Shown here: one piece after another, positions 29,500-55,408 of the stretch
Numbering within the stretch: the first letter of the stretch is position 1
Layout: the number at the start of each line of letters is the position of its first letter
Assembly: GCA_025738555.1 (NCBI GenBank)
Contig: JAOVFP010000010.1
Location: 3,731,501-3,795,500 of the forward strand
Source of the DNA: Cyathus striatus
Lineage: Eukaryota; Basidiomycota; Agaricomycetes; Agaricales; Nidulariaceae
Direction: 5' to 3'
DNA: 64,000 bases
Made by a program: the position numbers and the translations under genes
Notes under the pieces: generated by a model
Told to the model about the DNA's origin: nothing
What the model saw: only the letters and a program-made list of their open reading frames with translations
Databases searched by the model: none

Positions 29500-29967
29500 C
29501 ACCTCAGACAGGACCAAATCGGATCAGGGTAAATATGGTACAACCCGATGTAGTTAACAATTAGAATATGTACAAAAATATGTCATTTGGCCGATTCATG
29601 TTCATATTTAGAAAATAATTATGAATCGGGCGCGTATCAAATCCATGAGCACTATTGAGAATATAACAATAAGACATATGTAGAATATCGTACAAAAATC
29701 GGTTACCATACCGATGTATGAACAAATCCTGAATCGGGGCGTACATTTGTCCCTAGATCCTATCCAAATACTGATCCTAAGTGTGTCTCGTGTCCCTATC
29801 TTATCACATATTCTGAATTTGCCCTCGAAACAGATCTCGAATTGGATCTTTTATCATATCCTCATTCCGATTTAGAATGTAAACAAAAATATGTCACTCG
29901 CCCCAATTCATGTACAGATTGTAAATATGACAATTAGAAATATTGATTACCCACTCACAGGGCCACT
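29500..29967 (+). repeat. Left terminal inverted repeat of the giant element
   Basis: Matches 54940-55408 in inverted orientation with only a few single-base differences and one indel. It contains oriented subterminal motifs around TGAATCGGGGCG: CCGATTCATG at 29591, ATGAATCGGGCGCG at 29621, TGAATCGGGGCG at 29730 and CGCCCCAATTCATG at 29898. In CACTA elements such motifs are transposase or accessory-protein binding sites; that role here is inferred. Confidence 0.85.
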
Positions 29968-30291
29968 CACGGGCCACTCACATCCGCTCACCGGACCACT
30001 CACTACCACTCACTACCCACTCCATTCCTGCCTGGTTCCCCGCTCCATTCCTACTCCACTTGTTGAAGGCTCTAATAAAATCGTGTGACGGTGTATATTG
30101 TGGGGGTAAACGGACACAGTAAATGACGTAGTGTACAGATTTAAATACAAAATATATAGTACATAAAAGGGATAGCATAGTGGCATAAAATAAAATGGAG
30201 AACATACTTGAAACATATAATGGCGCGAGCGGGGATCATTGAGACATTTGAATATAGATGTCTCTGGTATTCCAACACTACTCCTCGCTAA
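29968..30291. other. Subterminal GC-rich repeats and intergenic DNA
   Basis: CCACTCAC-type short repeats (CACTCACGGGCCACTCAC, CACTCACTACCACTCACTAC) run to about 30060 and are mirrored loosely at 54868-54940. A TCCCCGCTCCATTCC site at about 30038 and GCGAGCGGGGATC at about 30225 carry the GAGCGGGGA motif that recurs between other genes of the element. Confidence 0.5.
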
Positions 30292-30959
30292 TTATCCCAC
30301 TCGAGATCCTGCAAAACGAACAGCCCTAGCTTTCTTCAAGCCGGCGCCAACTTCCTTTGTAGTTATAGTTGACTTTCGGCAACCTTTCCTGTGGTTCTGC
30401 AATATAATCTTGATGATATCGAGTGTGAGCCAGTTACAATCATATTTGAGCAGATCGGGATACTGGTTAGCAGCCTTTAAAATATGTCAATAAATTAGAT
30501 ACAGTTAATGTGATGAACATTAAATACATACTTTCTCGCAAACGGTAGTGAGCTTGCTTTGTTCCTGAGTCGCGTATGTGTGATTGAAGTCCAACACCTC
30601 CTTCGCAATTACTGAGATGCGGGTCTGAAAATCATGCCCACTAAGTAAGAATTTACAATTTAAAAGATTTAAAAGCGATGTATTACCTCCATATCACTAA
30701 GTTGCTCCGGGCTACACTGTACATAGTCGACTAGTTTGTAAGTTTTTCCTGCTTCGCCTTTCGGTTTTGGAATCACTACCACCACGGAGCTGGTCTCAGA
30801 TTCGCCACCTTCATCTAGTGGGTAGCAAGTCCTGAAGGAGCACGGCGGTGGGGTAAGCAAACGTTCTGGAGAGAATCGCATACGAAGCGTCGACGGAGAG
30901 AAACGACGCAAAACACGATAGTTTCTGGATGGAGGCATTTTGAGTCTTCTCCATGCCAA
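30292..30959 (-). CDS. Small cargo protein with shared C-terminal domain (copy 1)
   Basis: Three exons (30687-30959, 30532-30624, 30292-30474) splice in frame into 182 residues. The start is MAWRRLKMPPSRNYRVLRRF, giving a basic N-terminus; a second Met lies seven residues later. The middle is an acidic-to-hydrophobic segment (TSSVVVVIPKPKGEAG). The C-terminal ~90 residues read ISVIAKEVLDFNH, then ANQYPDLLKYDCNWLTLDII and a basic tail (NHRKGCRKS). The YPDLLKYDxNWxxxDII block matches FPVLLDYEKNWAAVDFI in the 151-residue protein at 39054-39609, in the same relative position, so the two are probably paralogues. No known family is recognised. A short basic domain protein could bind nucleic acid, which is a guess. 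Confidence 0.65.
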
Positions 30960-31148
30960 TGCATCATGTACTTATACCTACGAAACAATAAGAAGTTAGT
31001 TATGGGGAAGGAAACGCATACAAATCATACAAAAACAATATCTCTACTGAAAGGTGTTGATGTAGCATGGCAAGACAATAGATGTCGGAATCAGCAAGCG
31101 CTAATCAGTCAAGAAGGAAATAATACATATGTTGAACGCACTAATACA

Positions 31149-32852
31149 CTATACAGTGCTGTAACTAAGGAAGGAAGTTAAAAAGAATAACGACATAAAC
31201 CCAACTACGATAATTGTGAAAAACACTACTACATCTACATACCCTGAAACGTAAAGACAAAGCATACAAATGATCAGGATACCGCCAAGGCCATAACTGA
31301 TTGGAAGCATTTTCAACGGAGTTTTGAAATCTAGCATTGGTTCAGGAGAACAAACTGTGCTAGTGCTCGATGTTTCCGTACTCAAGTCGGTGCTGGTACT
31401 TGAAGTCCATACCTTAATTTCGATATTGCCGTTATCCGACGTTCCAGTCGCAATGACACACTGCTTTTCGGAACTGAATACCTATTATATAGTTAGCATT
31501 AACATCGCTAGTATTTAGAAACTTTGCAAACCTCGGTTATTTGTACTAGCGTTTCAACTAGCAAAGTATTTAGATTTCTTCGTTCTCATGTGTATAACAT
31601 TAATTACTTACCGTAGCCATGGGGTAGTAGTGCAACCAAGGTTCCCAAGCGTTGATCATATACACGTACTACACCATCATCACTACCGACAACTACCAGT
31701 TCACCTTGCAGGGCAGATGAGATGACAAGAGACACATTTGAGCGGATAGCATGCTTTAACGACCTAAGTGGCTGTACAGGCGGAATGGCATATATGTCAA
31801 CGCCATCTTGAAGATTAGAGATCAGTAGAGTACGATTATCTGCGCCAATGATGGCATGTCCACTGTAACAACATATCAGGCGGAGCAGTTAACTATAAGG
31901 CAAGAGAGAGACTGACATTCTGGTACGGATCTCATGAAACCATCGCATTTTCCAAGGAGTCAGCTGATAGCAAAAGCTACAACCACATGTAAAAACTTCA
32001 AGGATAAAAGCATGATGGTGGGGCTTACATCTCACGAGATTCCAAATAGCAGAGAATTAATTCCGCCCCATTCTGCGTAAACATGACACTCCTAGCCGTG
32101 TGGGGGCGAGGGGTAGACTCTATGTACAGAGAAGCTTGACCTAAGAGAGATTCAGTGAGCGCAATATGGAACCTAGAGGACAAATAACATACCTGGGAAA
32201 ACCAAGTTCCACACTTTGAGAGAGCCTGCCCCAAGCGAGGCGAGGCGACTATGAGACGGATCAAATTTCAGGTCTTCCAAAGGGCCATCATGCGCAGATA
32301 TCGCCAACACATGCTCATAACCATCTCCGGTTTTACTTTCCTGATATCCTCGGATTACACCGCTACCTGTTCCGAAATATAGTATCGTGGAACCTGTTTC
32401 TGCGAAATGTGCCCAGCAAAGGGTTGTAACTTCACCAATGACGGACGCTTCCCAAATCTTTTCGCCTGTCGTTAACTCCCATACTACCATAAGTCCATCA
32501 TCACCTAACAATATATTTTAAACATGCGTATAAATATTTCAGAGAACTTGCCGCTCACCACCGCTTGCAAGTTTAGAGCCATCCTGGTTTATCTTTAAGG
32601 CGTTGATCGCTCTCGAATGTTGGTTGAGCGTATATTTTAAGTCAAACTGAAAAAATGCAATTAGCAATAGTTAACCCAAAATGCCAAAGTACGTGCAGTA
32701 AGAGTAGCTGGCTTCATGTTGGAAGGTGATCTGATAGAGCTGGTGTCGGATACGAGTACGGCGTTGATGTATTCTCTGCGTTATTGTTTCGCCGACTAGT
32801 TTCCTCGTATCCCCGCTCATTCCCCGCTCGGCGAAAGCTTACCCGCACCATA
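31149..32852 (-). CDS. WD40-repeat protein with C-terminal membrane segments (copy A)
   Basis: Exons splice into WD40-type repeats: FDLKYTLNQHSRAINALKI..GSKLASGG, DDGLMVVWELTTGEKIWEAS, HDGPLEDLKFDPSHSRLASL then GSLKVWNL, ARSVMFTQNGAELILC, GELVVVGSDDGVVRVYD, and VIATGTSDNGNIEIKVW. A Ser/Thr linker follows, then two hydrophobic spans (LGGILIICMLCLYV and VDVVVFFTIIVVGFMSLFFL), and a stop at 31149-31151. A WD40 propeller with a C-terminal membrane anchor suggests a scaffold on a membrane; the ligand is unknown. Five introns share position and phase with the copy at 44208-45862. The first exon is short, and I placed the ATG at 32850-32852 on a donor just after it; this start is uncertain. No internal stop remains after splicing. 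Confidence 0.75.
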
Positions 32853-33301
32853 GTATTCATAATTTTGTTAGTCTAGTGGAGTTGGAAGCGTCATACAAAT
32901 AAAAGAAAGGAACTTGCCTAACAACTTATTGTACAAAGACTTTTGTTCCGTTGCTACCATCCTACTACGCACACCGGCGCGATCGGGTATAACACAATTG
33001 CAGTGGAGCATTTGACAGGCATTCCATTCCGCCTCCGAACGCCACCATTTTCTGCATCATTTTCAAAATCCGACGAAGAATAACCAGACCAATATACCTC
33101 CGAATTGAACGTACATGAAGAAATATCGACTGAGTAAGAGATTTCAGCTTGTTGTAAATTACAGACGGGATTCAGGTTATTGTAAATTTTATGCCCGTTC
33201 AAAACAGGTACTCAGGCTCTATAAAATGAGACTCGTTTAAGGTCAGTATAATCGCTACATATATCAACTTCAGTTTAACTTCACTATCAACTTTTACGGC
33301 G
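32853..33301. promoter_or_regulatory. Divergent intergenic region between WD40-A and F-box genes
   Basis: Just inside the 5' part of the WD40 gene two TCCCCGCTC sites sit at about 32813-32831 (TATCCCCGCTCATTCCCCGC). TATA-like TATAAAATGAG occurs near 33220 upstream of the F-box start. The layout suggests a shared promoter region; no element is proven. Confidence 0.35.
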
Positions 33302-35113
33302 ATGGCCAATCTCAGAAATGTCATCTCTCTGGGCTGCAACTTGGTGAGCATTAACAATTTTCTTGACTGGAATTATGTTCTAAGCTTTTAATATGTAGGA
33401 ATTGACGTCGGTTGCACGTGTATTTACTCGGGCTTTTGCTAAGAGCCTCAGAGCAACTAGCACCACATGTAAACGTGGTTCCCAAGAAATCGATAATCTT
33501 TTGCCAGAATACGAAGGAATTAGAAAGCGGCGTAAACTAGTACGTTTAACTAAATGGTACTTATGAAATATTGTTACTGAATAGAATTGAAATTGAACAT
33601 AGGCAACCGTCAAAAACCAATGCATGAAGGCTCAGCAGGACTCCTTCCCAATCCTAAAGCTTCCAGCGGAACTAGTAGACCTGATAATTACTCAGGTTGA
33701 TGAGGGCAACATCTTGCAGCTACTCCACGCCAATCGTTACCTGCGCTATGCAGCGTCGGAGGTCTTTCTTAGAATGCAACATATATTACAAACTGATTGC
33801 ATTGGACGTGCCGTGATAGCCTTAACAGGAGACGTCAATCCGGCTGTGATTCATCTCCTAGAACATATATCGACACGCTCTAGACGCTACAGAGTACTAG
33901 TCAGCTTGTATTGTATCAGGGAGTACTGCGAAGGGCTTAGTACGTTCCTGAGCAAGGCTTTAGGAGTACAGGAACTCACTATCACACATCATTGCAAAAA
34001 CAAGGACGACGATACTTTCCCTGCAGAGCCGTCCGTTATTGGTTCTGTTGCTGTCATCCTGGCGAGTCTCCCCCCTTCTTGTACGTGCGTTGGGTTGGAC
34101 GGCACAGGTGCTCCTCAAGTCACCAGCGTAACTGTATCGCCATTGCCATCTCTGCCGGAGATCCCTTATGAAAGGATTAGAGATAACATCGCTGCTAGGC
34201 TTCAGAACCTCCGTATATCGACCCACATCTTTGGTAACGAAAGCATGATCAACTTGCTGTCTATATTGTTAAGTGGGCTGTCTCTAAATTTCTTAAGTAT
34301 CAGGGGGAGGAGTGGAAAGGATATTGAACCAGTCCTACTTTGCGGGTCTATGTCAAACCTTAGGACGCTCCTGATTACATGCGACGAACCATTCACGTTT
34401 GGGTCCCGCTCTACTCCTCCGTTGTCCCAGCTACAACGCTTATGGATATGCTGTACACAGCATGAGAGTCGGTCGGTCAGTAAAGGGTCCATCAAGATAC
34501 CAAAGAATGTTACCGACATAACATGCAGCGAGGACTTCAAGCTGACCAACATCTCGTCCCAACTGAAGGCGGTTCAGCTTCGATTAACAGATGGCTTTCC
34601 AAACCCATATACCCACGAATTCTGCAAGTCAATGGCGAACATCACCTCCCCTCTTCAACACTCTCACCGACTCGGCGCCGATGCCAGCATCAATATCGTA
34701 CTTCCCTACTCACTCGACGAACATATAAAAGCAGACATACCATGCCAATGCTCTATTCCGGACGTGAATGCCATACGTAAATGCCAAAATCTGGAGATCA
34801 ACCATCAGTATTCAGAGCTATTGTATTATGTGCGTTGTCTTACCTTATTACTGCCTTTTTTCTAATGAGTTGCGATCAGGATTACTACATAAAGTTGCTC
34901 GAGGGTGCTTCAAAGCTACGGAAGCTAACCATACACCCTCCTTATGGGAGTGGTACACAGTTCACAGACAGCAAAGAGGGTATGCAAACCTTCATCACAA
35001 CACTTCGTGCATACTGTCCCGACCTTGAATCAGTTAGTTGCTCTCCTGACATATGGAAACGCCAACCGGAAAGGGGAGAGTTCATAAGGCTAACCATTGA
35101 AGATTTATATTAA
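33302..35113 (+). CDS. F-box-like protein, 547 aa
   Basis: Four exons (33302-33343, 33399-33539, 33603-34829, 34880-35113) splice in frame. The N-terminus is MANLRNVISLGCNL then a basic stretch (EYEGIRKRRKL). An F-box-like module, FPILKLPAELVDLIITQVDE followed by LLHANRYLRYAASEVF, lies at about residues 70-115. F-box domains recruit SKP1 and act as substrate receptors of SCF ubiquitin ligases. The remaining ~400 residues have irregular leucine-rich blocks (LNFLSIRGRSGKD, NLRTLLITCDEPF, LLEGASKLRKLTIHPP), as in agaricomycete F-box/LRR-like proteins. It is divergent from the WD40-A gene and convergent with the transposase, 151 bp away. No stops or frameshifts are seen. The substrate is unknown. 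Confidence 0.75.
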
Positions 35114-35264: not shown

Positions 35265-38200
35265 CTAACGTACACGTACTTGAATAAACGGCTTCAAGGC
35301 CAGAACTCCATCGCTCCACTTGCGTTTAATAGCAGGGTAAATTTGGGTTTTGTTAGAAATTATGTGAACACGATCGTCCAGTAAATCCTTCCAAAGACCT
35401 ACACCGAACTCTTTGAAGTTGTCGAATGCACTTGCTACATCTGCTCGCCCACTGTAGGGGTGAACTGCGAAATAAACCTGCGGTTGACAAGCTACAACAA
35501 ATATAGTTCGAATCACCGCTGGAATTAGTTGCGAAGAGTCTGGGTCCCTGTAGAATATGATACTATTCCTTGCCGTGTTATGTTTCGACGATAATTGATG
35601 TCCGCTGACTGTGTAACGATCGTGCTGGGTCACTATAGCAGAATTACCTCCCAAACCCGCTGCTTCTGCAACATCAGCGTCAAGCTTGATCCGCTTTCCA
35701 CCTACGGGTTGACGTACGTCGTCCACCAAGAATTGCATATCACTTATTAGAGTCCCCGATTGAACATCAGGAAAGCAGTCTTCGACGATTTTGCTGCTCT
35801 GTTTGAGAATTTCAGGACACCCCGGGCGCTGTAAGAATACCTGAAGTTCTGATGCAGCACAGAAAGCTCTCAACATAGATGCTTCCAGCTCTCCTAGAAG
35901 GGCCTTTAGTATGGATTCTACACAATTGATGATCAGGACAAACCAAATTTGAAGTTAATGTTCTTCTTCTGCAGGTTACCGATTACCCGTTCAAACGGAA
36001 ACATCCACCAGCCATGAATAGGCCCAAACAAGCGCAATTGTTCTGCCAGGTGAACTGCATTATGATGTATAGGATGGAGATCAACGTCAGGCCTCAGCTC
36101 TCGAATTGAGCGAAGATACGCTAACATAAACTTCTTGTATTCCAGGTCGTGATGACCAGGTTTTACTCGGTGAGAGGTAGCATATCTGATAGCGGTAGCA
36201 AGAAGCAACGTGCTTTCCAGTGCCATTTGTTTCTTTCCACCCATTAATGATTCGTCAGTTTCGCTGTCCCACATCTTCGCCAATGAAACAGTCAAGTCGA
36301 AGTCGATACACGTTCGCCATTGATCGGCTTTCAATTTACCATGAGAAGGTGAACCAAAGTTCGCTGGTGGACCTGCCTGCCAACTTGGACGGATGGTGTG
36401 TAAAATGTCTTCTTGGATATGTTTCAAGTCATCGTGATCGAGAAGAGGGATGCTAGGGTGTGCATCAACAGTGGCCAACTCATTGATATCAATCTCAATA
36501 CCAGCCAGATCGCTGATGATTCCATGCGCTACTGGGCGGGCTTCATCACCCCCTCCAGACCTTGAGCTGTCAAGCTTTTGACCAATCAATGATGGTGAAT
36601 CGTTTCAAAAGGAATGACTTACAAGCACATTAACATAATTCTGCTTCTTAACTCGCCGACCCATATGTTTGAGCCTGCCTAAGACACCAAAATGCTGGCA
36701 GAGTGATCGCAATACCGGTATAGACAGTCTACGCAGGTTAGACGATGTCGGCTGGGACAACATCACCTCTAGCCCTTTCTGAATAGCCTTTGCTGTAGGC
36801 TCCTCCACCTCCGGCTTCTCATTAAGTTCCAGGTTTTCATCCCAATTCATACCTATGACGACGCGAAAATGATGTTTTACGAGACCTAGATAAAAGTTGT
36901 GCATCCCATCAACAACCGTGTACTTCATTGGGTCCCAATATTCAAGCCGAAGAAGCTCAGACCAACGAATCCCGTTCTTTTTGAAGAGCTGATCTCTTTG
37001 GGATTTACTAGTGGCATCTCGCCAGGCCATCGCGGCTTTAAGATGTTCTTCATAGGTAACTGGCGTCCAGCCAACTGAAGAACAGTTAATATTGTTGATA
37101 TCCTGCTTCCTGAGATGGCACAATGAACAAAAGATCGTCGCAGAATGGGACGCGCATCCTGTCAGCTTGCGAGAACCCGGTAAATCACATACTGCGGGAA
37201 CAATGGCCTCCCGACCACAAATCCCATTAGGATGTTGATGTGTGCGACTATACCAAGTACCCTTATGATAGCTCTGGTGGAAAACATCTATAAGTGGAGC
37301 AAGATATGGATTCAGGCCATCTAAAGATGGTTGGCGAGGTCCTGGTATCAACCCGGCGAGATATATATTCTCTGGTCGATAACGCATGCTTGCGGGTAAG
37401 CTAAGACATACAAGCGCCAATGACCCCACTGATGCCGACTTTCCTGCGGCTTTGTTGTGATACAGATTGAAGGCATCATAGCTGATGCTCCAGAGTGTAC
37501 GTAGTTCCTCATTAGAGTCAACAAAAACTTTTCCATCCGCATCAGTGAACTGGCGAATTGCTGCTGCCTGATTAATATCTCGAAAGCCATCATGGGTCAA
37601 GGCTTGTCTGGTCCGCCTAATCAATTCCTCGACACCGGGGCGCGTGTACAGTGCGCCCACGAAGGCCGTGAAGTCTTGCATAACATATGGCCGTGCCGGA
37701 ACCACAATGGTCACACCGTTCTGAACAGCGTGTTTCGTTAAGCGCACTCCACACGGCTTTGCATTAGCAAAGCGTTTGAACATACAGCGAAGCGGGTAGG
37801 CATCCTTTACACCCGGGGGATAAATTGAAGCACAAGATGGGCAGGTGGCGTAGGTTGTCGTTTTGGGGTCCAAATCGAACATTTTCCTCGCTGTCCGCAG
37901 GTCGTCCGGTATTGATCTGAGGAGCAGTGTCTGATCAGCCGAGGTAGCGGCACCCAGCAGAAGCTTGGCCATTCGGAGGATGAAGTTGCAAGTAGGGCGT
38001 GCAGCATTCGCAAAAACACTAACGGCGACCGTAAGGAAAAGGCAAACTGCCAGAGCTGGATGGCTGAGGCGTAAGGGATGGTCAAAGTGAACATCTGTTG
38101 AACGAGTTATTTATCGCACTATCCCCAGTACTAAGCTACTTACCAGTGTCATAGGATTTCCCGTAGGGAAAGGCCAAATTACTCCAGCGTTCTACGCGCT

Positions 38201-38735
38201 TTTGAATATCCGCTAGTAGCGAGTCCGCACCCGTATGCACTGAACTTTTGAACAATTCGTTTGCACCATCTCCAGAAGTCGGGACAAGACGAACCCGAGC
38301 TATAAGATCTAGCAGCCAGGACTCTTGGCTCAAGAGATAAGCATGAGCCTGACTCCTAACGGGAAATCTGGCGGCTTCGTCCTGCATAGCTGGATTCCGT
38401 GTTCCGTTTTCAAGCCATTCTTGAAAGACTGCACGAATACTGTCGCGACAAAGCGTTAGACTATTGTCGCACTCCAATAAGCGCTGGAACATCAGTTGCG
38501 CATCTATCTCGTAGGGAGAAGGTTGGGGAATCGAAGGCGGAGGTATGTCCTGGGGAGAACATGGGCCAGCTTCAGCAAGAGTGAGCGAAAACACTCGATC
38601 TTCAATGCCCCGAAGATCGTCTTCAGCCTTATTTTCGCTCACATGCGCGATAAAGTCCAATTCGGTCATCGTGACCCCGTTGCATTTCTTGCAATAGCAG
38701 ATCGCTAGTTTCTTCTCCTTCTTTGAACGGGGCAT
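35265..38735 (-). CDS. Tnp2-type (CACTA) transposase, 1107 aa, apparently intact
   Basis: Four exons (38144-38735, 36623-38094, 35944-36574, 35265-35893) splice to a single open frame with introns of about 48-50 bp. The N-terminus has a Cys cluster, CYCKKCNG. The core shows CPSCASIYPP, FTAFVGALYTRPGVEELIRR, ENIYLAGLIPGPRQPSLDGL, IVPAVCDLPGSRKLTGCASH and LLRLEYWDPMKYTVVDGMHN. The C-terminus holds HLAEQLRLFGPIHGWWMFPF, the FER motif, and FGELEASM. This order matches agaricomycete Tnp2 proteins, which excise and insert CACTA elements. The Asp residues of VCDLP and VVDGMH are likely catalytic, with the third acidic residue probably downstream; that part is inferred. It lies near the middle of the giant element and is its probable mobiliser. 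A different subfamily label (Plavaka/KDZ-like) is possible. Confidence 0.9.
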
Positions 38736-39053
38736 ATTCCTCTTCGAAGAGCGATCAGTATATAGATATAAGCAATAGCTGGGAACGTACCTGAAACTTG
38801 ATATAACACTGGAGATGCAGCAGTGATACAGCTTTTAAAGTCACTGAGACATGATACTTGATATATATAGAATAAAGGACGTACTGACATGACAACTTTT
38901 GGTGTAACCGATTGAATCGGACTAACGAAGGCGCTTATAAAACAAGACCACCGTTGTTCACGATAAGCGGAACAAGGTAGGACACAATTCCGGATGAAGG
39001 AATACCTATAATGTTAATATATAGGTCAGAACACGAAGAACGACGTCACAGCA

Positions 39054-44207: not shown

Positions 44208-45862
44208 ATGTCGATTCAAGCTGATTTACCAAAGGTATGTGTAATCGTAACTTTCGTGTCTCGGAACTAACGAAATGTATAGTTCACCACGATCCATACC
44301 CTTCTTTACCACGAAAAGCCCATCAACGTCCTCAAATTGTGTCCAGATTCATCGAAGTTGTTAAGCGGAGGTAGGATTGTCTCCTTATGTTTTAAACAAA
44401 TATAGACTTAATGATGTACTAGCTGAAGACGGTACATTTGTCATCTGGGATACGTCTAGCGGAGTAATTCTCCAGACTGTTAGCCTAGTATTCCATGGTC
44501 CTGTATCCGCCGCAGTTTGGATGCCGGAACTTGAAGGCATGTGTTCGAGGTTTGCTGTAGGGTTTGCAGACGGCTCCATCATGGTATTTCACTATGAAAC
44601 CACCAAGGTAACTCTGCCTTAGTTTCTTTTTTTCGTTTGTTCATTTTTTTCTTTAGTTTGTCTGCAAAAGTGTTACAGAGGCGCATGAACATCGCGTGGA
44701 GGAGATTACATTTGACAAGAGTGGCCAACGTCTTGCTAGTATTGGAACCGGCTGTTTGGTGGTGTGGTCAGTCAACTCTGAAGGTACGGCATTTGAATAC
44801 CTTTGTTTCTTGACACTTACGAAAACTATAGGCGACCTCGAAGAGTACGCAAGGACACCATCTCATAACCACATCATCCGTAGCGTCTCCTTCCATGACG
44901 ACGGAAAACAGATTTTATTTTCAGTGCTCGAAACGCACGAGCTGTGAGTGTTGCTCCTCGTTTGCAATAATAGCTGATCTCACTCTCATAAGGATTAATT
45001 ACCAAGTTGATCCGTGGACTCCTCAGTGGAATCGTCGTCTGAGGTCTCGCATGTACGTTTCACTTTCTAATTATTCACGACGTTTACTTATATGGGACAA
45101 GTGGTCATGCTGTTGTCTCTAGCAAGAAGGAGATCCATGTTTCGAATCTATTCAATGGCGTCGACACATACTCGCTCCCGCCTTCTAAACCACTCAAAAC
45201 CTACGAACACCCAATTTCCCGCAATTTCCCCCTGCAACTTACTTGCGCACTAGATGGTTCTCTCGTGATTGTTGGTAGCGATGACGGATCTCCTCGTGTA
45301 TTTTCACGTTTCGGGAGTATGCAGTCGTGTTTGCCACACGAAACCAACGCTCTGACCCAGGTTGTTGAGGTAATTCTCCTTCTTTCGGAACTATAGCATT
45401 GGTTAACATCCTTTAACATAATCCAAGGCTGTCTCTATTGGTTCAAGGTGTATTGTAGCCACAGGCTCCTCGGAAAACAACGATCGCAAGTCACCTTATC
45501 CCATTAAACTATGGGATTCAACGCCCGTCGTAAGTACATATCTCGATCTTATATATCCCATCCATCTCATATCCCACAAGAACACTGCTACACCTAAAGA
45601 TCCTTCTGAAAAGGATGTCGTTGCGATTTCGAAATCGAAATCACTTACCTATACACAGGTAATTGTAATAATAGTCGCTGTTCTGTTTTTCCAAGGACTT
45701 CAAGCACTATTGTTAACCAACACGATTGGAGGATGGGTTGAGGTACTCCGTTCTTCCGTAATGGCGTTTACACAGCCAGCTCTCAACACAACCAGCTCTC
45801 AACACAACTCTTCCGTGATAACAACGCTTACACCGCCAGCTCTCAACACATCCAACTCTTGA
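44208..45862 (+). CDS. WD40-repeat protein with C-terminal membrane segment (copy B)
   Basis: ATG at 44208 (MSIQADLPK) is followed by an intron and FTTIHTLLYHEKPINVLKL..SSKLLSGG. Further WD40 blocks are EDGTFVIWDTSSGVILQT, FAVGFADGSIMVFHYETTK, HRVEEITFDKSGQRLASI then CLVVWSV, IIRSVSFHDDGKQILFS, GSLVIVGSDDGSPRVFS and CIVATGSSENND..PIKLWD. One hydrophobic span (VIVIIVAVLFFQGLQALLL) then precedes a Thr/Ser/Asn-rich tail. The gene parallels WD40-A in length, repeat order and five intron positions (after SGG, WS..E/P-G, the ESREI/ETHEL pair, RTRI/RSRI, and ITE/VVE). The two are therefore paralogues duplicated after the introns were gained. Role unknown; a membrane-anchored scaffold is a reasonable inference. 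It is followed 320 bp later by the Spt5-like gene on the same strand. Confidence 0.75.
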
Positions 45863-46181
45863 TTTTCGTAGATGCACACTTACATACTGGACTATGTATA
45901 TACACAGGTTATGTAGCCTATAGTACTATGAACTCTGAGTTCTCTAGCAGCCCTCCCTATTCGAGGGAGCGGGGACTGAGCGGGGAGGGCGGAAATTTCA
46001 CGTGACCGTTGATGCCTTGATGCCTGCCCTTAAGTTGGGACCCATGATAAAAGGAACCATAGACGCGTCGTTGAAGATTCTTTCCTCCTCGTCACGTAGA
46101 TACTGTAGTTACATAGTAGTAGCAATACAATACCTTACTAAATACAATACCCTACAACACCTACCGATACAGATTCGTACA

Positions 46182-49046
46182 ATGTCCCAAGATAACTGTG
46201 CTCAGAATCAGGACGGCTCGCTGAAGGACGCGTCACAAATTCAATGGTTTAACGACGTAGACGATGAAATACCGCTCTCGCAGCCTGGACCATCGAAGAG
46301 CAATTTGAAGGTAAAAATATACGTATTTATTAATTTAACAATACTGAGCACTGTCCGTACAGCCTAGTAAAACGAAAAGAGCAAGATTGGCGGTAAGACC
46401 CTATGCTATTAACACGATGAAACTATATTAACATCTCGCTTCAAAAGTCATTTTTAGATTTAGAAGCTGAAGTAGCCTCTGGCTCGGAGGACGAAGACCC
46501 TATTAATTCAGATGGTATGTAAGGGCTTTAAGAAATAGTTGTTATTACTAACTATACCTCTCCTACAGATGATTTTATTAACGATTTCACGGATGACGAA
46601 GATAATAACATTGATCGTCCCCGTTTGTCGTTAACACAGGTCGTTGAAGCCGAACATGGTTTCATTGACCATTTGACAAACAAATACGTTGAAAAGTCAA
46701 GGCGCGTAGGTAACCATTCGGGGCGCGATGGTGATCCCATGTTTTCGACCCATAAGCACGGTATCGCTCGTAGCGGTATAACACCTCAAGATTGGCCAAT
46801 GTTTGACATCCCGGTTAAGGTCAGTAGTAGGCTGTATAAGAAACCCACGAAACCAGCTCTTACTAGCCTTCTGTAGGAAGGATCCGAGGAAATAATAGTC
46901 CATATGCTCACAACCCAAGCTGGTCCTAAGCACATTCGCAGCGCGTTCGCGTCAGCTATGATTCCAGGTCATGTTTATGTCGAAGGACACAACCTAGAGG
47001 TCGTTAAAAAGTGTGCAGCTATCTATAGCCAAGCTTTCTCCAATAGGATTCGTCAGACGCCTACTACGTGCTGGAATTCTTTCCCAAAACTATCGTCAAC
47101 ATACATTCCTACCCAGTATTCTTGGGTGCGGCTCAAAGGGAATTACCGCTATGATCTCGCATTTGTAACCAATGTTTGTGACCGCTCATTTCGAATCGAC
47201 GTCGTTCACTTGCCTAGAATCCTCTACAAAAAGGCCTCAAAAAAGCGTGCTGCAGGATCTTCAAGGTTGAAGATTGTGCCTCTGCCACCTTGCGACTCAT
47301 TCAACGTCGACCACGCCCGAGAGCTAAGCCCAGGCGAGCTTTTAGTTCAATATGAAGATGCGGAGAAGAAGGTTATCAAAGGATACACCTTTCGGGGTTC
47401 GCAGTATACCACGGAAGGATTTATCATGGGTAGGAAACTCGATACTGATGACTACTACCAGGTCGACGCCATGCCGACAATAGATGAATTAAGATCTTTC
47501 GAGAAATGTAGGCAGGTTCCTGCGCATGTCATGGAACTCTCCCGACGCGCATCACTATCGTTAAATATAAAGATAGGTGATCAAGTAAAGATTACCCTGG
47601 AAGGGGGAAGGGATTACTTGGCATTCGTAGAGGATATTGAAGAAGGAAATGCGTCGCTGAATCTTGTGGAATTTCCGACACAAGTCTTTTCACAATCCCT
47701 GGAACTTCTTCAGAAGTTCTTCAAGGTCGGCGATGGTGTTAGGGTTAAATCTGGGGAGCACAAAGGAAGAGTTGGGATGGTAACAACCGTGGAATGTAAC
47801 GGAAAGATAGGCGACGAGACCATTACCTTTGTCGCCTTTCCATTAGGAGAGGTCAGTATTTTTACTAACGCGGATTCGTTTTATTCTAACAAGTTAAATA
47901 GGCTAATCACCTGCAAATTCGCTCGTCAGACCTAGACCACTGTAGCGAAGTGCAACGAAGTACCACTTTTCGGTGGCCAGACGGAAAAAGTGAATCGCCC
48001 GTAAATAGTGCTGCCTCCTATGGTTCTGAGGCCTACCAGATGCGAGTGGATCCATATCGGTACCAGTATGGGAAATACGCCTGGGTAAGGTGTGGTCCAC
48101 TCAAAGGAACTCGTGGGATCCTGAAGAGCGTTAGCGCGAGCAATGTTGCGCAACTTGAGGTTCCGGAACGCCTAATGTTTTCGAAGGATCTTGTGGAGTG
48201 TCCTATGAAGGGCCTGTATATTCCAGGGTATTTGTACAGTATAATATAACTCTCTTTAAATAACTAACAATATTACAGATACAGCGATAAGTCTATGAAT
48301 GATTTTTTTACAGCTGAAACTACTGGAAAGGACACCGAACCTGCACTGGGCGTTTGTTCGACACCACGCTGGGAACATGATTCTGGGATTGGGTCTCAAA
48401 CACCCGCTTGGAATCCAAGTTCAATGACCCCTCAGGTTGCTTCAGCCTCCTCTGACGCGTCTGCTGAATTATTTGCTTTCGCTCACCACAGTTCGTTTCT
48501 CACCCAATTGTATCATTTATAACTAAAATATATGTAGTTCCAGAGAATACAGCATCGTCGTTCCCCCTGCAACCCTCTGCGACTCTCCCTGCCTCAATGC
48601 GGACGGCTGTCGTCGGTGAAGGCTCTGCTCGACAACCAACTGCATTTGATGGTACGTAGGTGTAGTATCATTACTTTTGCATGAAATATTGATTTATTGC
48701 ATTATATGCAGAACATTGGATAAAGCGTATGATCGATGCCGATGGCGCCGTCTTCAAAGGGAAATTATTAAATGTGATAATTTCAGGTACGCAGCCAACT
48801 GATACAAGCCTTGGTTTCGAAAATGGACGCCTAGAAAATGCGGAGTGTCACTTCGAAGGGTTAGTAAGAGACAAAAAATGTTTCCGGGTGCGGGTTATTG
48901 GCGAGGAGGTCATTCATGAAATACCTCCAGAGTTCGTGCAGCCAAATCACCCGACAAGAATGCCTCAACGTGTGATTGTCTTCAACCCGGCTAACTTCCA
49001 TGAATTCAGAAATACATACCAGGTATATGTTGTTAATGGGAAGTAA
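46182..49046 (+). CDS. Spt5-like transcription elongation factor (NGN + KOW)
   Basis: Nine short-intron exons give about 820 residues without stops. An acidic N-terminus (WFNDVDDEIPLSQPGPS, DLEAEVASGSEDEDP, DDFINDFTDDEDNN) resembles the acidic start of Spt5. An NGN-like block follows (HIRSAFASAMIPGHVYVEGH, NLEVVKKCAAIY). KOW-type segments are YSWVRLKGNYRYDLAFVTNV, IKIGDQVKITLEGGRDYLAF, FKVGDGVRVKSGEHKGRVGM and YAWVRCGPLKGTRGILKSVS. Spt5 binds RNA polymerase II with Spt4 through NGN and keeps it processive. Here the protein is transposon cargo and clearly divergent, so it is probably not the cell's essential copy. It could aid transcription of the element or antagonise silencing; both are hypotheses. 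The start is the first ATG before the acidic region. Confidence 0.75.
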
Positions 49047-49197: not shown

Positions 49198-50066
49198 CTA
49201 CTTTTTACACTGTATTATACATTTGTCCGTGCAAAAAATCGCCCGTAGATATCCTTCAGAGTCCATAAGGTCCTCTAATTCGTCAGTGGTAAGTCTTCCC
49301 AGATTATACTGATAATATGGATGATATCTTTTACAGTCTATGGGCTACAGAGTTTCAGTAATTGACAGTGAGTAAATATACTAATTTCACTTACAAGAAT
49401 CGTCGCTGACGTTTCAAGTTGCTTTTGAATTGTAGAAAGGTGGAGAGTGCCTTCGTCATCGACAGCACAAACTACTTCACGTACGTGTCTCCAGTCCTTC
49501 GCAGATTTGTACACTCGTACAGTAACATACTGAATACGCGTCACCTTCACAGTGGTATGTTTGGATGCTGCAGGATTGGATATATGTCTAACCGTATCCA
49601 TAGGTGCACCCGATCTCTTGTCTACTAAGTGTGGAGTTGATACTGTTCCTGGTAGGTCGCAATTTATGTTCTCATAGGGGAGGAGTTGATACTTAGAATC
49701 AATATCGCTAGCACGTTCGTTTAGTCTGTCAGATTGTCAGTCCGTGTAACGTATAGAAGTCGTAACGGCTTGCCTATTCTTTTTTTTTTTTGGCGACTCT
49801 TCAGGTTCGTCTATGGCTGGTCGTTTCTTAGAGTTTTGTACAACTGACGACACCTTTTGACCGTTCCGAGACGCAATAAGGGCTGCGATGAAGTCCTCTT
49901 TAATCGGTACTCCCGGGTTCCTTCGGCCTGTTGGGTGTACATTCAATTCGTTATCTTTACAAAGTTGCTCCAGTATGTGGTTTGGGAAGGGTCTAAGAGC
50001 TGACTTGCGAACAACCGCCCTTTGAAGAACTTGCTTTGCTTTCTGTACTGACGGGTTAGACATCAC
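49198..50066 (-). pseudogene. Basic SAP-like protein with one in-frame TGA
   Basis: Two exons (49395-50066 and 49198-49344) keep one frame of 272 codons, interrupted by TGA at 49737-49739. The N-terminus reads MMSNPSVQKAKQVLQRAVVR, then LRPFPNHILEQLCKDNELNV, HPTGRRNPGVPIKEDFIAAL, which resembles a SAP-like DNA-binding helix-turn-helix in spacing only. A nuclear-signal-like PKKKKNRQ follows. After the TGA the frame continues with RLNERASDIDSKYQLLPYEN, VRVYKSAKDWRHVREVV and YNLGRLTTDELEDLMDSE. CGA would give Arg at the stop. A 12-base T run (49780-49791) codes for the lysines and is a possible sequencing weak point, but it does not change the frame. It is convergent with the Spt5-like gene, 151 bp apart. 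Confidence 0.55.
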
Positions 50067-51261
50067 GATCTAGCGACTCGAAAGTGAATCACGGTTATAA
50101 GTACATACTGCCGAACACTTGCCGAGCTCAACGTATTATTCTTTTTAGGCGCGCAGACGGTTACTATTGTATTCTATTGTATTCTCCTGTCGCTGGCAAC
50201 TACAATAGGTATACAATAGGGGCTTTGTATGCGACCGACTACGATAAATGGTGTACCACGTCAGGATCATCGGTATGTGCTTCTACTAAATGTCATATTT
50301 GTATCATATCGACGAACAAAAGTCTATCTTTGCATAAAGCTAAACAGGATAACTTGGATAAGATACGACTGTCAGCGAATGATATCGAAGGAGGTAGGTA
50401 GATTTCGAGATTCAAGTGCCCTTCGAATAACTTACTCTTGCTCCATTGGTTCTACAAACTACATACTATACTAATGGATATACTTCGAACTACAGCACGT
50501 TCCCTCTTCCTTCGTCTGCTCATTCTTTTCGACTTTTCCTGTACGCGACAGCTGGGGAAAATGGTACACCGTGTCAGATTCTTCGGTACGTGCTGCTAAA
50601 TACCACCCATTCATCCCTTTAGTTTATCCTTTATTCATTTAATTCCTTTATCTCCCCTTCCCTTTATTCGTCTTACTTCACCAACTGCTCACCATCCAAG
50701 CCAGTCAGAGTTGTCCGCTTAAGGTCCTTGGAACGCTTGGTACGATTTACGGTTGCCCCCTGAAGATATATATTATACAACTACGCATGAAGATACTATC
50801 TACTGCTTTAATTTCCATTGGTATGTCCATTTCGAGAACTGCTGGTTTCGAATGACTTACTCTTTATTGGGTGCGTTGGGGGTAGTGTTGTTGTTATTCG
50901 ACGACGATTCGACGACGTGCACTGTGTCAGAATTATTGGTACTGTTTCTCAAATCAGATTTGTCTACTAATTTATCTCATTTGTCGCGTTTTCATTATTC
51001 GATAGACGTTCACATAGAAAAGCGGGGTGGTAGTGTCAATTGTATTAGTTTGTAAGTTTGTCAAATTCAACCGAACTGAGTGAAGGACTTATTCTCCTTA
51101 AATCCTACACAGTATTCATCTTACACAGTATTTCCTACTTCATCAAAAACCCAACTACATACTTATGGACAACCGGATAACTATTTACACCTTACAATTC
51201 TTCTTTTTCCTTGCGCTGAAAAAGATAAGTACATAGAAGGTAAAACAATTCAAGAGAAAGC
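50067..51261. other. No clear gene; diverged repeats of a donor-like block
   Basis: Three related blocks, GGTGTACCACGTCAGGATCA (50252), GGTACACCGTGTCAGATTCT (50560) and GTGCACTGTGTCAGAATTAT (50917), lie roughly 310-360 bp apart. The first two end in TCGGTAYGTGCT, a donor-like sequence. They may be copies of a duplicated exon in a gene too decayed to read. No frame is convincing. Confidence 0.3.
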
Positions 51262-51691
51262 TTACATGGGGTAACGGATATTATACCAACTCACGACCCG
51301 ACAACTCCGGTACGTTTTGCCGGTACAGATGTAGAAACGGACCGTCTTTACGAATAAAAATAAGTGCTTAATGGCTTGCGAAATATTGGTGACTTACCTC
51401 TTTCACTTTAGATTTACGACCATTGCCCTTCTTCGCGTTCTTTTGCTTGGGCTTCCCTTGACGTTCATCGCGTACCAATTCCGCAGCCTTCCAACATCCT
51501 CTCCAGTACACCATATGTTCAATGCGCACCAATTCTGCAGCCCTCCAACGCCCTCCCCAGCGTACCATCACCCGATCGCCTATCTGCAAATGCATTGTAG
51601 AAGAAATGTAACGAATAAAAGAAGAACTTACCTCATAGAATGTAGCCTGGAGATCATAGGCGATGAATGTAGGCTCGACTACTTTCGGCAT
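51262..51691 (-). CDS. Small Tudor-like protein with duplicated WRAAELVR unit
   Basis: Exon 1 (51632-51691) gives MPKVVEPTFIAYDLQATFYE. After a short intron ending in TTTGCAG, exon 2 reads IGDRVMVRWGGRWRAAELVR, then MVYWRGCWKAAELVRDE, a tandem duplication. A Lys/Gly-rich tail follows (QGKPKQKNAKKGNGRKSKVK). GDxVxVRWGGRWxxAELV is the type of pattern seen in Tudor or Agenet-like chromatin readers, though the match is short. A third exon from the acceptor near 51345 to TAA at 51262-51264 would add 26 residues. The gene has canonical donors and no stops. It may be one of the smallest cargo genes or a fragment of a larger one. Confidence 0.45.
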
Positions 51692-52568
51692 GTTCCTACT
51701 CTCGAGGTCCTAAACTTGTCAATGTAGCTCTACCAAGTGTACTCACCTCAGCAACGTTTGAGAACTTGTATTGGTTCGTTACAGAATACAGGAAGAGGAG
51801 TGAGTGGCTTTTGAACTCATCGAAAGCTTATTTCGAACTCCAGCACAAGCATTCCCGCCTCAACCACTCGTTCCCGCTTCCAACCACGCATATCACCGTC
51901 CACGCATCCATTTCGCCTAACAACGACAACGAATGACGAACACGATAGTTGGATTTGGGGTAAGGGAGAGCGAGTTGCAGCTGCTGTTTGGAGAGGGCTT
52001 GGTTTCACATCCTATTCGTACGTTCGCTGCTTCTTCAGCTTCATCACTCACTCTCCTGCTATATTTCATCGACACGAGACCATCGTTCTTTGCCATACCA
52101 CACGTAAAATCACGCCAACCATTCCACCGAACCCCAAATGACCAAGACGACGACATCAATGCTCGAACGACAACGGCGAAGGCGGCAACGTTCGAACGTC
52201 GAAAGCGATGGCGTCTACGCTCGAACAACGACGGCGAAGGCGATGGCGGCAACGTTCGAACGTCGAAAGCGACGACGCCCACACTCGAACGACGATGGCC
52301 CATGAAGTCTCAGACTCCCACTCCCTCGTCTCGTCTTGCAAGTGACAGGCACCGTCTCACCCCTCCCTATTCCCCTCCCCTTCCTCCCCTGCCTCGTCTC
52401 CTCCTCCCCTTCCCAGCAATTGACGTGCGTAATGTCACGAGTAGGAACGTCAAGCCGACAAGCGCCTCCACCTGCACTCCCTCCCTTCCCTCTTCTCGCA
52501 AGGAACGAGCATCACACTATCGCCATCGCCCTCCCCTCGATTTTCAAGTGACGAGCGGCATTGGGCCT
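51692..52568. repeat. GC-rich non-coding DNA with a ~65-70 bp CGAACG repeat
   Basis: At 52156-52300 two units share GGCGGCAACGTTCGAACGTC followed by GAAAGCGATGGCG, with a third partial copy. The palindromic core AACGTTCGAACGTT-like is prominent. Long frames here come from the compositional bias, not from recognisable domains. Confidence 0.45.
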
Positions 52569-53300
52569 CCCACTCGTGCAAATGGCTCTATTTATCATTC
52601 GACCACGATGTGGACGACGAATATCTGGATTTGGGAGCGATGGCTAGTCGTACGTGTATCCACTCTTCATTCACTCCCCCCTCCCCTCTCCCCCCCAACC
52701 TCCGTGCGTGCTGACTACGCATGATAGATGCCGCCTCCACTTACCCTCCTCCAGATCATCTGTGATGTCAATGTTGCTCACAAGTCCCTGTTCCCCCCCC
52801 CCCTCCCAGCCAACGCCTCCCACTCGTGCAAACGTCCCATTCAACATTCAACGATGACGAATAGCTGGATTTGGGAGCGAGGACTCGTCGTACGTGTATC
52901 CGCTCTTTATTCACCCCCCCCCCCCTCCCCAACCTCCCTGCGTGCTGACAACAATGATAGATACTACCTCCACTTCTCCAGATCATCCGCGATGCCGACG
53001 TTGCCCACAAGTCCCTACTTCCCCAGCCCTGCCACGCCTGCCACTCGTGCAAACGGCCTCGCTCACCAATCGACGACGACGAATAGCTGGATTTGGAAGC
53101 GAGGACTCGACGTACGTGTATCCGCTCTCCATTCGCCCCCCCTCTCCCCCAGTCTCTGTGCGTGCTGACGACGCATGGCAGATACCCCCTCCACTTCCCC
53201 TCCTCTAGATCATCTGCGATGCTGACGTTGCCCGCGAATCCCTGTCCCCCTTCCCCCTCCCCTCAGCCCAGCCAACACCTCCCATTCGTGCAAATGGCCC
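52569..53300. repeat. ~220-245 bp C-rich tandem repeat, three copies plus partials
   Basis: Each unit begins CCACTCGTGCAAA (about 52569, 52818, 53040; partial at 53281). It runs through ATAGCTGGATTTGGGAGCG, CGTACGTGTATCCGCTCT, a poly-C/CCCCTCC tract, GTGCGTGCTGAC..ATG and AGATCATCYGCGATG, and ends near CCCAGCCAACGCC. A diverged copy lies at about 54240-54480. Repeats of this kind close to one end only make the element asymmetric. Confidence 0.75.
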
Positions 53301-54867
53301 CATTCATCCCCCCGATTCGCCAGTCGCCAGTCTCCCCTCTCCTCACCCGTGCTACAGACGTTTCCGTGTTTCCATTGAGCACTCATCTTCATGATCCCGC
53401 CAGCAGCCCCTCCCCTCCGTTCGCTCCGGCGACCCAAGAGCGCTCGCAATGAGACTTGAACATCTACAAGGCAACTCCGGGAATACACGCAGAGCAGAGA
53501 ACTAGCTGCGCAAAACGCATCTGGTAAACCACCCGTCGCAAGAAGGGACACATCGAAGGCGTGGAACGCCGATCGTGCGTAACAGTCGAACCTCTGCAGG
53601 ATAACCCCACGGATACGCAACCAGAGAACAGGGTGCGCGAAACGCCTCCGCAAGCGAACGACACGGCTTAGAACCAACACCCCATCCTCGTCCGACGACG
53701 AGTAACAACACACTCCATGTCTCTGCGCGCCTCCAGCAATCTGCCCCAGTCCCCGCTCGCAGCATGCGTCATAAACAGCCGTACTCCACTGGCCCACACC
53801 CGCACTGTTGTCCCGTCCCCTGCTCGAGCAGGATTCGACAGCAGTCATCACCAACCATCTATCCCGCTGGGAAGACAACCATAAGACGCCGAGCACGCGC
53901 CCACGCATTACTTCCTCATCTGTCCTAGAGCAAGCAACCAGCACTGCCAGCCGCCACGAATACCGCCTCGAGACTCCAAAACAGCCTGAGCCATCGTAGT
54001 TACAGCTGCATGCGAACCCCAAGCATGAACCATGGTTGCAACTGCCCACTGGTACCGCTCAAGCAAAACTTGTAAGACGAGTAAAAACACCATTCCCTCC
54101 ACCTCCCCGGAAACTACCACCAGTACCTTGCAGGGGCTGGCTCCCGCCTCCTGCAAAACTCGAAGCGGGGGAGGGACCACGTCCCATCTTCACCGCCGCT
54201 GTATCATTCATCGACCTCGACACATCGCCTGCACCACCTCAACTCCATGCAAGTCCTGAATTTGCCTTCGTCTTCTTGGTCTACCTCAACAACACCTCTC
54301 GTATCTGTCATCCTCGCAAATGGACCCGTTCTCCCCCCTCCCCAGTGCTCCTTCGTACTGACGATGCGTGATATCACCCACCCCTCCCCCCACCAATGAT
54401 CTGACGTCGCTCGCAAGTCCTGTTGCGTTTTCGACACCTTAATCCAGCCAATGCCCCCCCCCCCCTCATTCGTGAAAACAGTCCTGATCTCTTGTATCCG
54501 CCGGCTACCCACGTCAGTTTCTCCCACCTGCGCTACCAACGTTATTACTGAGCCTCCGTCTCCTTAATCGTGCTAGAGGCTCCGCTCCCACCTCTCATCT
54601 GCGCTGGCGGTCTTTATGGATTTACAGGAAAAGGGAATGTTTTCCCTTTACATTCTCCGTTTTCATGGGCCCATTCATTCCTTTCCCTTCTTTCTTCCTC
54701 ACTTCTAGCGTCACGCTCACTCGCTGGGCTTACCCGTTCAACTCCGAGGTCAACATCTCCTATCCGTTCACTAATCGGTCATTCTCTACCTTGACGTTAA
54801 TAGTGCAGTGTTTATATACGAACGAACATGTATCTACGGTACATTTTATGTGTAAATGGATTGAGTG
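53301..54867. other. GC-rich region without gene
   Basis: Contains a ~125-bp diverged duplication around CAGAGCAGAGAACTAGCTGC (53490) and CAACCAGAGAACAGGGTGCG (53617), and the diverged C-rich repeat copy near 54240-54480. A 279-codon minus-strand frame (53210-54049) is compositionally biased and has no domain; I do not call it. Confidence 0.35.
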
Positions 54868-54939
54868 GGGAACATGGTGGGAATAGAGTGGGTAGCGAGC
54901 GGCTGTGAGCGGCCCTGTGAGCTGATATGAGTGGCCTGA

Positions 54940-55408
54940 GAGTGGCCCTGTGAGTGGGTAATCAATATTTCTAATTGTCATATTTACAATCTGTACATGA
55001 ATCGGGGCGAGCAACATATTTTTGTCTACATTCTAAATCGGAATGAGGATATGATAAAAGACCCAATTCGAGATCTGTTTCAAGGGCAAATTCAGAATAT
55101 GTGATAAGATAGGGACACGAGACACACTTAGGATCAGTATTTGGATAGGATCTAGGGACAAATGTATGCCCCGATTCAGGATTTGTTCATACATCGGTAT
55201 GGTAACCGATTTTTGTACGATATTCTACATATGTCTTATTGTTATATTCTCAATAATGCTCATGGATTTGATACACGCCCGATTCATAATTATTTTCTAA
55301 ATATGAACATGAATCGGCCAAATGACATATTTTTGTACATATTCTAATTGTTAACTACATCGGGTTGTACCATATTTACCCTGATCCGATTTGGTCCTGT
55401 CTGAGGTG
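54940..55408 (-). repeat. Right terminal inverted repeat of the giant element
   Basis: Mirror of 29500-29967, ending ...TTTGGTCCTGTCTGAGGTG. It carries the same subterminal TGAATCGGGGCG-type motifs. The near-identity of the two repeats argues for recent activity or ongoing conversion between the ends. Confidence 0.85.

Follow-up and report, generated by a model that had tools for sequence, protein, structure and literature searches.

Structure and Gene Content of the Window Element

The window analyzed in this work, i.e., the whole stretch of 64,000 nucleotides of Cyathus striatus DNA, located in contig C10, contains at positions 29500–55408 a block (hereafter the C10 element) that is very probably one copy of a multi-copy, giant transposon of the CACTA/EnSpm type with a conserved multi-gene core including a paralogue of Spt5. 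The block is bordered by terminal inverted repeats (TIRs) of 549 nt, whose arms are 95% complementary and whose first 468 bp are almost identical. Within these repeats it terminates with CACCTCAGACAGG at one end and CCTGTCTGAGGTG at the other, i.e., with 5'-CAC..GTG-3', and a TAT trinucleotide is duplicated directly outside both ends. The inverted-repeat search and the reading of ends and borders confirmed the near-identical TIRs with CAC/GTG ends and the 3-bp TAT target-site duplication (TSD) listed in a preliminary description of this DNA. Its TIR of about 468 bp was a real repeat that turned out to be 549 bp long, and its CAC/GTG ends hold, with the precise start CACCTC rather than CACTA. 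Short subterminal repeats, which are a feature of CACTA/EnSpm elements, are present as well: ATCGG/CCGAT occurs 8 times in the 549-bp TIR (1.5 expected; reached by 0 of 2000 first-order Markov shuffles) and CCACTCAC occurs 5 times.

The transposase gene (g3) encodes a Tnp2-type protein, with PF02992 scoring 33.6 bits (cut-off 28.6) in the exon 36605–38107 (minus strand) and DUF4218 scoring 30.1 bits (cut-off 27) in the exon next to it; in a six-frame scan the respective scores were 29.2 (above the cut-off) and 24.1 (below it). The CAC..GTG ends, the 3-bp duplication, and Tnp2 together place the element among CACTA/EnSpm transposons. The main Tnp2 exon contains no stop and is 80% identical to its counterpart in an element of a second subfamily (the C14 element, described below) and 37% identical to that of a distant locus. 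The preliminary impression of an intact-looking Tnp2 holds as far as this stop-free main exon is concerned.

Besides the transposase, nine gene-like regions were distinguished (Table 1), seven of which are clearly conserved in the second subfamily, while g6 and g10 have short, weak matches only; an open reading frame neighbouring g6 (42773–43054) has one weak match in the C14 element. For the nine or more cargo genes of the preliminary description, these counts are a correction, and the reading as cargo was not supported. The g1 gene, whose PF00400 score was 26.2 bits in the six-frame scan, and g7 both end in a C-terminal stretch that appears hydrophobic by eye. As the Pfam WD40 score of g7 (17.5 bits) is below the cut-off of 27, this gene was named WD40-like on the basis of its identity to g1. 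For g2, no Pfam F-box match was found, and its C14 homologue has one weak leucine-rich repeat (LRR) match. The g5 protein gave no Pfam match; by its position alone, it is a candidate counterpart of TNPA, the second DNA-binding protein of plant CACTA elements. The structures predicted for the Spt5-like (g8) and Tnp2 exons had pLDDT values of 32–33, too low to be of use.

Table 1. Features of the C10 element and its borders, given as positions in the window; exon limits are approximate, as derived from open frames and tblastn conservation.
Feature	Position	Strand	Basis or remark
Target-site duplication TAT, left	29497..29499	.	border reading
Left TIR, 549 bp	29500..30048	+	inverted-repeat search
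g1, WD40 beta-propeller gene (exons approximate)	31152..32670	-	PF00400, 30.7 bits (cut-off 27)
g2, F-box/LRR-like gene	33603..35110	+	F-box likeness by eye; 58% identical in the C14 element
g3, Tnp2/CACTA transposase gene with DUF4218, about 4 exons	35268..38834	-	Pfam
g4, conserved short region that may be a gene or a 5' exon	39018..39606	+	tblastn, 44–76% to the C14 element
g5, protein gene adjoining the transposase	39821..40773	-	48–55% in the C14 element
g6, proline-rich repetitive open reading frame	41042..42169	-	no match in the C14 element
g7, second WD40-like gene	44283..45859	+	82-residue match to g1 with about 45% identity
g8, Spt5-like gene (acidic N-terminus, NGN, KOW1, further KOW)	45948..49043	+	
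g9, conserved gene	49201..50069	-	53–70% identical in the C14 element
g10, small open reading frame	51371..51709	-	pN/pS of 0.36 within the subfamily; two short matches at other places of the C14 element
222-bp tandem repeat array, right part of the element	52613..53233	.	
Right TIR	54860..55408	-	inverted-repeat search
Target-site duplication TAT, right	55409..55411	.	border reading

A Multi-Copy Family Inserted as Units

One genome (107.45 Mb in 24 contigs) was searched. A 23-bp end motif (≤3 mismatches) was found 136 times in forward and 140 times in reverse orientation (reversed control: 0 and 0), and the 471-bp left end gave matches of 92–100% identity among the best 40 of 315 candidate places. 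Joining the nearest inward-facing ends from both sets of matches resulted in 17 inverted pairs bounding elements of 6.8–41.5 kb. These are the copies on C2 (17.9 kb), C3 (6.8 kb), C4 (27.0 kb), C5 (21.0 kb), C6 (24.9 kb), C10 (25.9 kb, the window element), C11 (39.5, 23.2, 31.1, and 40.9 kb), C12 (41.5 and 30.3 kb), C15 (38.5 kb), C17 (22.8 kb), C22 (27.0 and 27.0 kb), and C24 (17.9 kb). The borders of all 17 pairs were read, and the 3-bp target duplication was exact in 15; the C6 copy has an ATT duplication if the last element base is counted as mutated, and the C22b copy has its left end clipped by 7 bp. An exact 3-bp duplication also borders C6b, an element of the second subfamily.

The two flanks of each of 16 sites were then joined and compared with the genome; the best 40 of 90 candidates in one run and the best 40 of 628 in another were scored, so that the resulting count is a lower bound. 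For at least four of the 16 sites, paralogous empty sites running straight across the junction were found: C5 (two places, 95%), C11d (four places at 88–90% and a fifth at 83%), C4 (dozens of places, up to 99%), and C15 (one place, 94%). The four C5 and C11d alignments that were inspected base by base contain a single copy of the target. Two further candidates were rejected, i.e., the C6 site, for which about a dozen places share the right flank only, from the junction on (C6:4732998), and the C24 site, whose left flank is merely shared, at 99%, with another family end on C23 (C23:311536–311606), in what resembles a duplicated chromosome segment. The 40.9-kb copy (C11:2910639–2951513) is inserted in a short repeat with inverted ends of its own, and it was this repeat that supplied the empty sites found for it.

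The inverted pairs, the exact 3-bp duplications, and the paralogous empty sites show that the elements of this family, which reach about 27 kb when uninterrupted and carry 549-bp TIRs, were inserted as units. The earlier statement that the whole block moves as one unit is in this respect borne out for the family, although none of the four empty sites belongs to the window copy. The occurrence of the repeats at unrelated positions without the interior, which the preliminary description had named, for related strains, as evidence against itself, is not the general rule; still, 15 of the 47 listed ends with 0–1 mismatch are unpaired (32 are in pairs), and the 6.8-kb C3 copy lacks most of its interior while retaining both ends and its TSD. 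A third end type, CACCTCAGACAGGCCTAAATCGG, is present in 29 forward and 40 reverse exact copies, with hardly any pair within 45 kb (by eye).

Variation, Size, and Age of the Copies

The interiors of nine copies were read (C10, C2, C3, C4, C5, C6, C17, C22a, and C22b; C5 without its last 1.4 kb). C10, C4, C22a, and C22b share, with gaps, long collinear blocks (90–96% identity) corresponding to about 29500–50700 of the window, and the remaining five are shortened or interrupted, with C3 and C6 matching C10 at 93–96% over much of the part from 50.7 kb to the right TIR. In the three copies exceeding 30 kb whose interruptions were located, the extra length comes from insertions that hit core genes or lie next to them: C12a gained about 11 kb in the region of the Spt5-like gene and 2.6 kb near g9, in C15 the Tnp2 gene is split by about 8 kb, and in C11d the F-box-like gene is split by about 8.5 kb. 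The insert was read in C12a only, where its first 10 kb contain two long open reading frames that look retroelement-like by eye and gave no Pfam match.

The CpG observed/expected ratio is 0.94 in the window element versus 0.23 in the rest of the window, and CpG is almost completely lost from the flanks (0.00–0.02 at 18–28 kb and 0.09 at 56–58 kb). Among the nine copies, the ratios are 0.94, 0.92, 0.83, 0.74, 0.73, 0.55, 0.49, 0.44, and 0.32. CpG transitions account for 163 of 237 private changes in C22b, 20 of 41 in C4, and 37 of 72 in C22a; they are not the main kind of change in C2 (50 of 1532) and C6 (145 of 1311), where their low share probably results in part from misalignment around gaps. 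Judging from base composition, the copies probably decay in CpG after insertion, and the window copy, having the highest ratio of the nine, is probably young. The ratios speak for CpG decay as such and for neither methylation nor an escape from it. Its 3-kb left flank recurs elsewhere only as repeat fragments (best 40 of 948 candidates). Long open reading frames resembling fragments of retroelements or DDE transposases (by eye) are located farther left (1236–3722 and 7747–10025), and a small inverted repeat (41-nt arms, 85%) lies immediately to the right of the element (56222–56519).

A Second Subfamily with the Same Genes

The C14 element represents a second end type, ACTGAATCGG, of which the genome contains 29 exact copies in forward and 22 in reverse orientation. 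It carries g1, g2, g3, g4, g5, g7, g8, and g9 in the same order and orientation as the C10 element, with an amino acid identity of 35–84% by exon (80% for Tnp2 and 54% for the Spt5-like protein); its copies of g5 and g9 contain one stop each. The dN/dS ratios between the two elements, which should be treated as rough (see below), are 0.07–0.31 in 12 of 14 exons, with one of 0.51 and one not computable: 0.07–0.11 in two exons of g1, 0.21 in g2, 0.08–0.20 in g3, 0.27 in g5 (the other exon not computable), 0.13 in g7, 0.16 and 0.31 in g8, and 0.17 and 0.51 in g9. As a frame control, pN/pS was calculated for all six frames, and the true frame had the lowest value in 13 of 14 exons, in which codon position 3 was also the most divergent; the exception is the C-terminal exon of g9, which is without clear frame constraint. 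The comparison showed that the second-subfamily element has the same genes in collinear order and that these are constrained at the protein level.

The genomic distribution of these genes was also analyzed. All 46 matches of the F-box-like exon and 75 of the 79 WD40-like matches are no more than 25 kb away from a family end or family Tnp2 gene (about 6% expected for random positions), and three of the other four WD40-like matches lie near a distant Tnp2. For g5 the corresponding number is 41 of 55, with three more close to a distant Tnp2; the remaining 11, which are weak or degenerate, lie elsewhere. In a protein search, the Spt5-like exon found six proteins, all of Cyathus striatus (the best a hypothetical protein, 76% identical over 99% of the exon), and the F-box-like exon found one Cyathus striatus hypothetical protein (87% over 66% of the exon); since this search depends on 5-residue words in common and is limited in length, a lack of matches in other fungi carries no meaning here. 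Tnp2 relatives are widespread (143 protein matches, of which the best 120 were listed). The closest annotated matches are Cyathus striatus "hypothetical proteins". Annotated expansions of fungal gene families (Spt5-like, WD40-like, and F-box-like) may in fact be transposon genes.

The Spt5-Like Gene and Its Linkage to Tnp2

The g8 profile matches the solved SPT5 structure 7nky (E = 2.3e-17) across the acidic N-terminus, NGN, and KOW, and plant RDM3 weakly (E = 0.077). With Pfam, KOW1_SPT5 scored 25.8 bits (cut-off 22; just below the cut-off in two further scans) and NGN 19.5 bits, below its cut-off of 22.4. The SPT5 of the host is encoded by a separate gene on C20 (matching a solved Spt5 at E = 5e-69) and is 26% identical to the element's protein.

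After merging, 80 Spt5-like and 69 Tnp2 loci were compared, the latter from the best 86 of 139 candidates. An Spt5-like gene lies within 25 kb of 31 of the 34 close Tnp2 loci (≥73% identity), in all 31 cases upstream and in divergent arrangement. Ten of the 35 distant loci (<60%) are linked as well (about 1.3 expected by a crude uniform estimate); their Tnp2 is 33–38% identical, and the two genes are on the same strand in seven, divergent in two, and convergent in one. At one of the distant loci (C4:6446001–6462000), a Tnp2 of 35–37% identity and an Spt5-like gene of 60% (main exon) are present with no match to other genes of the window element, and the Spt5-like gene may thus have been the earliest partner. 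Weak WD40-like matches (25–27%) occur 6–7 kb from three unlinked Tnp2 loci, and at a distant C4 locus a Plavaka match below the cut-off accompanies a stronger Tnp2 match.

The protein identities (Spt5-like: 60% between C10 and C4d vs. 54% between C10 and C14; Tnp2: 37% and 80%, respectively) had prompted the idea that the Spt5-like gene was exchanged between lineages. A four-taxon test preferred the congruent tree, though not significantly (p-AU 0.857, 0.195, and 0.076), and no exchange is therefore claimed. Another giant family may be represented by a distant lineage on C1, C7, and C9, in which the Spt5-like and Tnp2 genes share a strand and several loci have a g5 relative of 30–31% identity at a distance of 10–20 kb from the Spt5-like gene.

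Interpretation and Alternative Explanations

Several observations weigh against the interpretation of the window block as a copy of a giant CACTA/EnSpm family with a conserved core. Concerning the block itself, its joined flanks gave no empty-site match among the best 40 of 628 candidates, which were filled by the C4 site, and the part at 50.7–54.8 kb is poorly common to C4, C22a, and C22b (pieces of 65–79%, one of about 92%). Stops are present in the Tnp2 or Spt5-like exon of six of the eight other copies fetched, in C4 these exons are split, and C3 is devoid of both. With regard to a DDE triad in Tnp2, a three-sequence alignment shows conserved D211 and D308, which may belong to it, and a CxxC motif. 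The second subfamily was read as one element, whose left end did not turn up in the 23 kb examined, its other members being represented by match coordinates. Since pS is 0.57–0.74 in 13 of 14 exons and dS between the subfamilies is therefore near saturation, the dN/dS ratios are rough, and the within-subfamily pN/pS (0.20–0.71 by exon for g2, g7, and g8; 0.50–0.73 for Tnp2) was given little weight, because equally low values occur in some antisense frames. Finally, no Spt5-like gene was found within 25 kb of 25 of the 35 distant Tnp2 loci, and twelve Spt5-like genes forming one group (400–403 aa, 46–51% identity; on C2, C3, C4, C6, C8, C9, C10, C11, C14, and C19) have no Tnp2 match within 25 kb and perhaps sit in another kind of element.

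The preliminary description regarded the block as a giant CACTA-like transposon with cargo, a basidiomycete counterpart of the Starships. The giant CACTA/EnSpm-like element was corroborated by its ends, TSD, and Tnp2, whereas cargo, in the sense of host-derived interior genes that vary between copies and serve the host, appears quite improbable. The large size of the element, with several genes not obviously needed for transposition, would suit a cargo carrier, as would the differences between copies at 50.7–54.8 kb, and genes could also be present in the C15 and C11d inserts or inside C11a, C11c, and C12b. However, the same genes were found in the same order in the fuller read copies and in the C14 element, so that cargo variation was not observed among nine read copies of the 17 plus one C14 element; the F-box-like and WD40-like matches are confined, entirely or nearly so, to the surroundings of the family; and the insertions in C12a, C15, and C11d struck into or beside core genes. 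Moreover, the six-frame Pfam scan of 29500–55408 (E 0.05) revealed no tyrosine-recombinase domain of a Starship captain (DUF3435).

It is improbable, too, that an ancestral element picked up the extra genes in a single event and that they are now carried along without function. Several copies do have stops in these genes, and the deletion copies C3 and C2, lacking some of them, still have TSDs; yet the low dN/dS of nearly all tested exons, backed by the frame control, and the presence of Spt5-like genes beside Tnp2 of only 33–38% identity at 10 loci speak against it. The reading of the block as a chance or nested composite, in which two small TIR elements or solo ends enclose an ordinary genome stretch, draws on the unpaired ends (15 of 47 of the window type and most of the CACCTCAGACAGGCCTAAATCGG type) and has practically no probability left. 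It is refuted for the family by the same 3-bp duplication at both ends (exact in the window copy and 14 others), by the four sites at which paralogous empty sites join the outer flanks, and by an interior common to four copies on three contigs.

We infer from the sequence comparisons that the non-transposase genes of this giant CACTA/EnSpm family are functions of the element rather than host cargo. In the mechanism proposed here, Tnp2 would recognize the repeated motifs of the TIRs and move the block by cut-and-paste, as CACTA transposases do, possibly assisted by g5 or g9, and the Spt5-like protein would act as a specialized elongation factor that helps RNA polymerase II to transcribe the long genes of the element through silencing chromatin. 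By analogy with bacterial RfaH and LoaP, we tentatively propose that this protein is the element's own elongation factor. The same protein could alternatively be a decoy, i.e., a dominant-negative SPT5 relative that disturbs transcription-coupled silencing by the host. Its 26% identity to host SPT5, the weak contact of its profile with RDM3, and the CpG decay of older copies, which suggests silencing pressure, are compatible with this. We nevertheless consider it doubtful, as the protein aligns with SPT5 through the acidic N-terminus, NGN, and KOW and is constrained, which is at least as compatible with a working factor.

Returning to the elongation factor, it is conceivable, and is put forward here as a tentative scenario, that a giant CACTA lineage turned a host Spt5 into a dedicated factor, which is found near Tnp2 proteins only about 35% identical, and later built a selfish core (two WD40-like genes, the F-box-like gene, g5, and g9), which would have let very large elements be expressed and spread in a CpG-decaying genome.

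Comparison with Known Systems

The window family shares with CACTA/EnSpm elements the CAC..GTG ends, the 3-bp TSD, and a Tnp2-type transposase (PMC12730594). An accessory TET/JBP gene has been described in fungal EnSpm and Plavaka elements (Kojima 2025, PMC12730594). The window family differs from the fungal EnSpm elements of that account in its size of about 26–27 kb, its seven further conserved gene regions, and its Spt5-like gene, and no TET/JBP match was found in the six-frame Pfam scan of the window element. Plavaka elements end with TGT..ACA or CATCA..TGATG (PMC12730594), while the window element begins with CACCTC and its Tnp2 exon has no match to PF18759, the Plavaka transposase domain. 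Oversized CACTA elements with several open reading frames are also represented by the enlarged EnSpm of the red alga Chondrus crispus (16–20 kb, 4–5 open reading frames; cited in PMC6431247); the window family is larger, fungal, and equipped with Spt5-like and WD40-like genes.

Among other large elements, Starships (PMC12134995), reported also in the basidiomycete Tremella fuciformis (PMC13066641), are likewise giant fungal elements carrying several genes, but they combine a tyrosine-recombinase captain with variable cargo, in contrast to the Tnp2, long TIRs, and fixed gene set in the read copies of the window family. KDZ transposons of Cryptococcus (about 9–11 kb; PMC12810828) resemble it as large basidiomycete DNA transposons with TIRs and differ in their KDZ transposase and TSDs of 4–8 bp, as opposed to Tnp2 and a 3-bp TSD. 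In the titles and abstracts searched, a scope that leaves most subscription papers aside and carries no claim of absence from print, no giant CACTA element with an Spt5-like gene was found. Relative to the literature compared here, the distinguishing features are the size, the multi-gene core, and the Spt5-like gene, with the algal EnSpm (PMC6431247) and the TET-bearing fungal EnSpm (PMC12730594) as the nearest precedents.

In the genome studied, CACTA elements of about 27 kb have risen to many copies, and their gene set, which includes an Spt5 paralogue, has stayed under constraint. This makes two questions testable, namely what a DNA transposon needs to be so large and whether eukaryotic elements, like bacterial ones, bring their own elongation factors to escape silencing. 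The likeness to RfaH and LoaP is one of role, i.e., a second factor of the NusG/Spt5 family serving a few special operons (PMC7819879); the window protein is a eukaryotic Spt5-like protein with several KOW regions, and no membership in that group is claimed. Should the proposed role be true, the Spt5-like protein would correspond, in a eukaryote, to the bacterial NusG paralogues dedicated to foreign operons.

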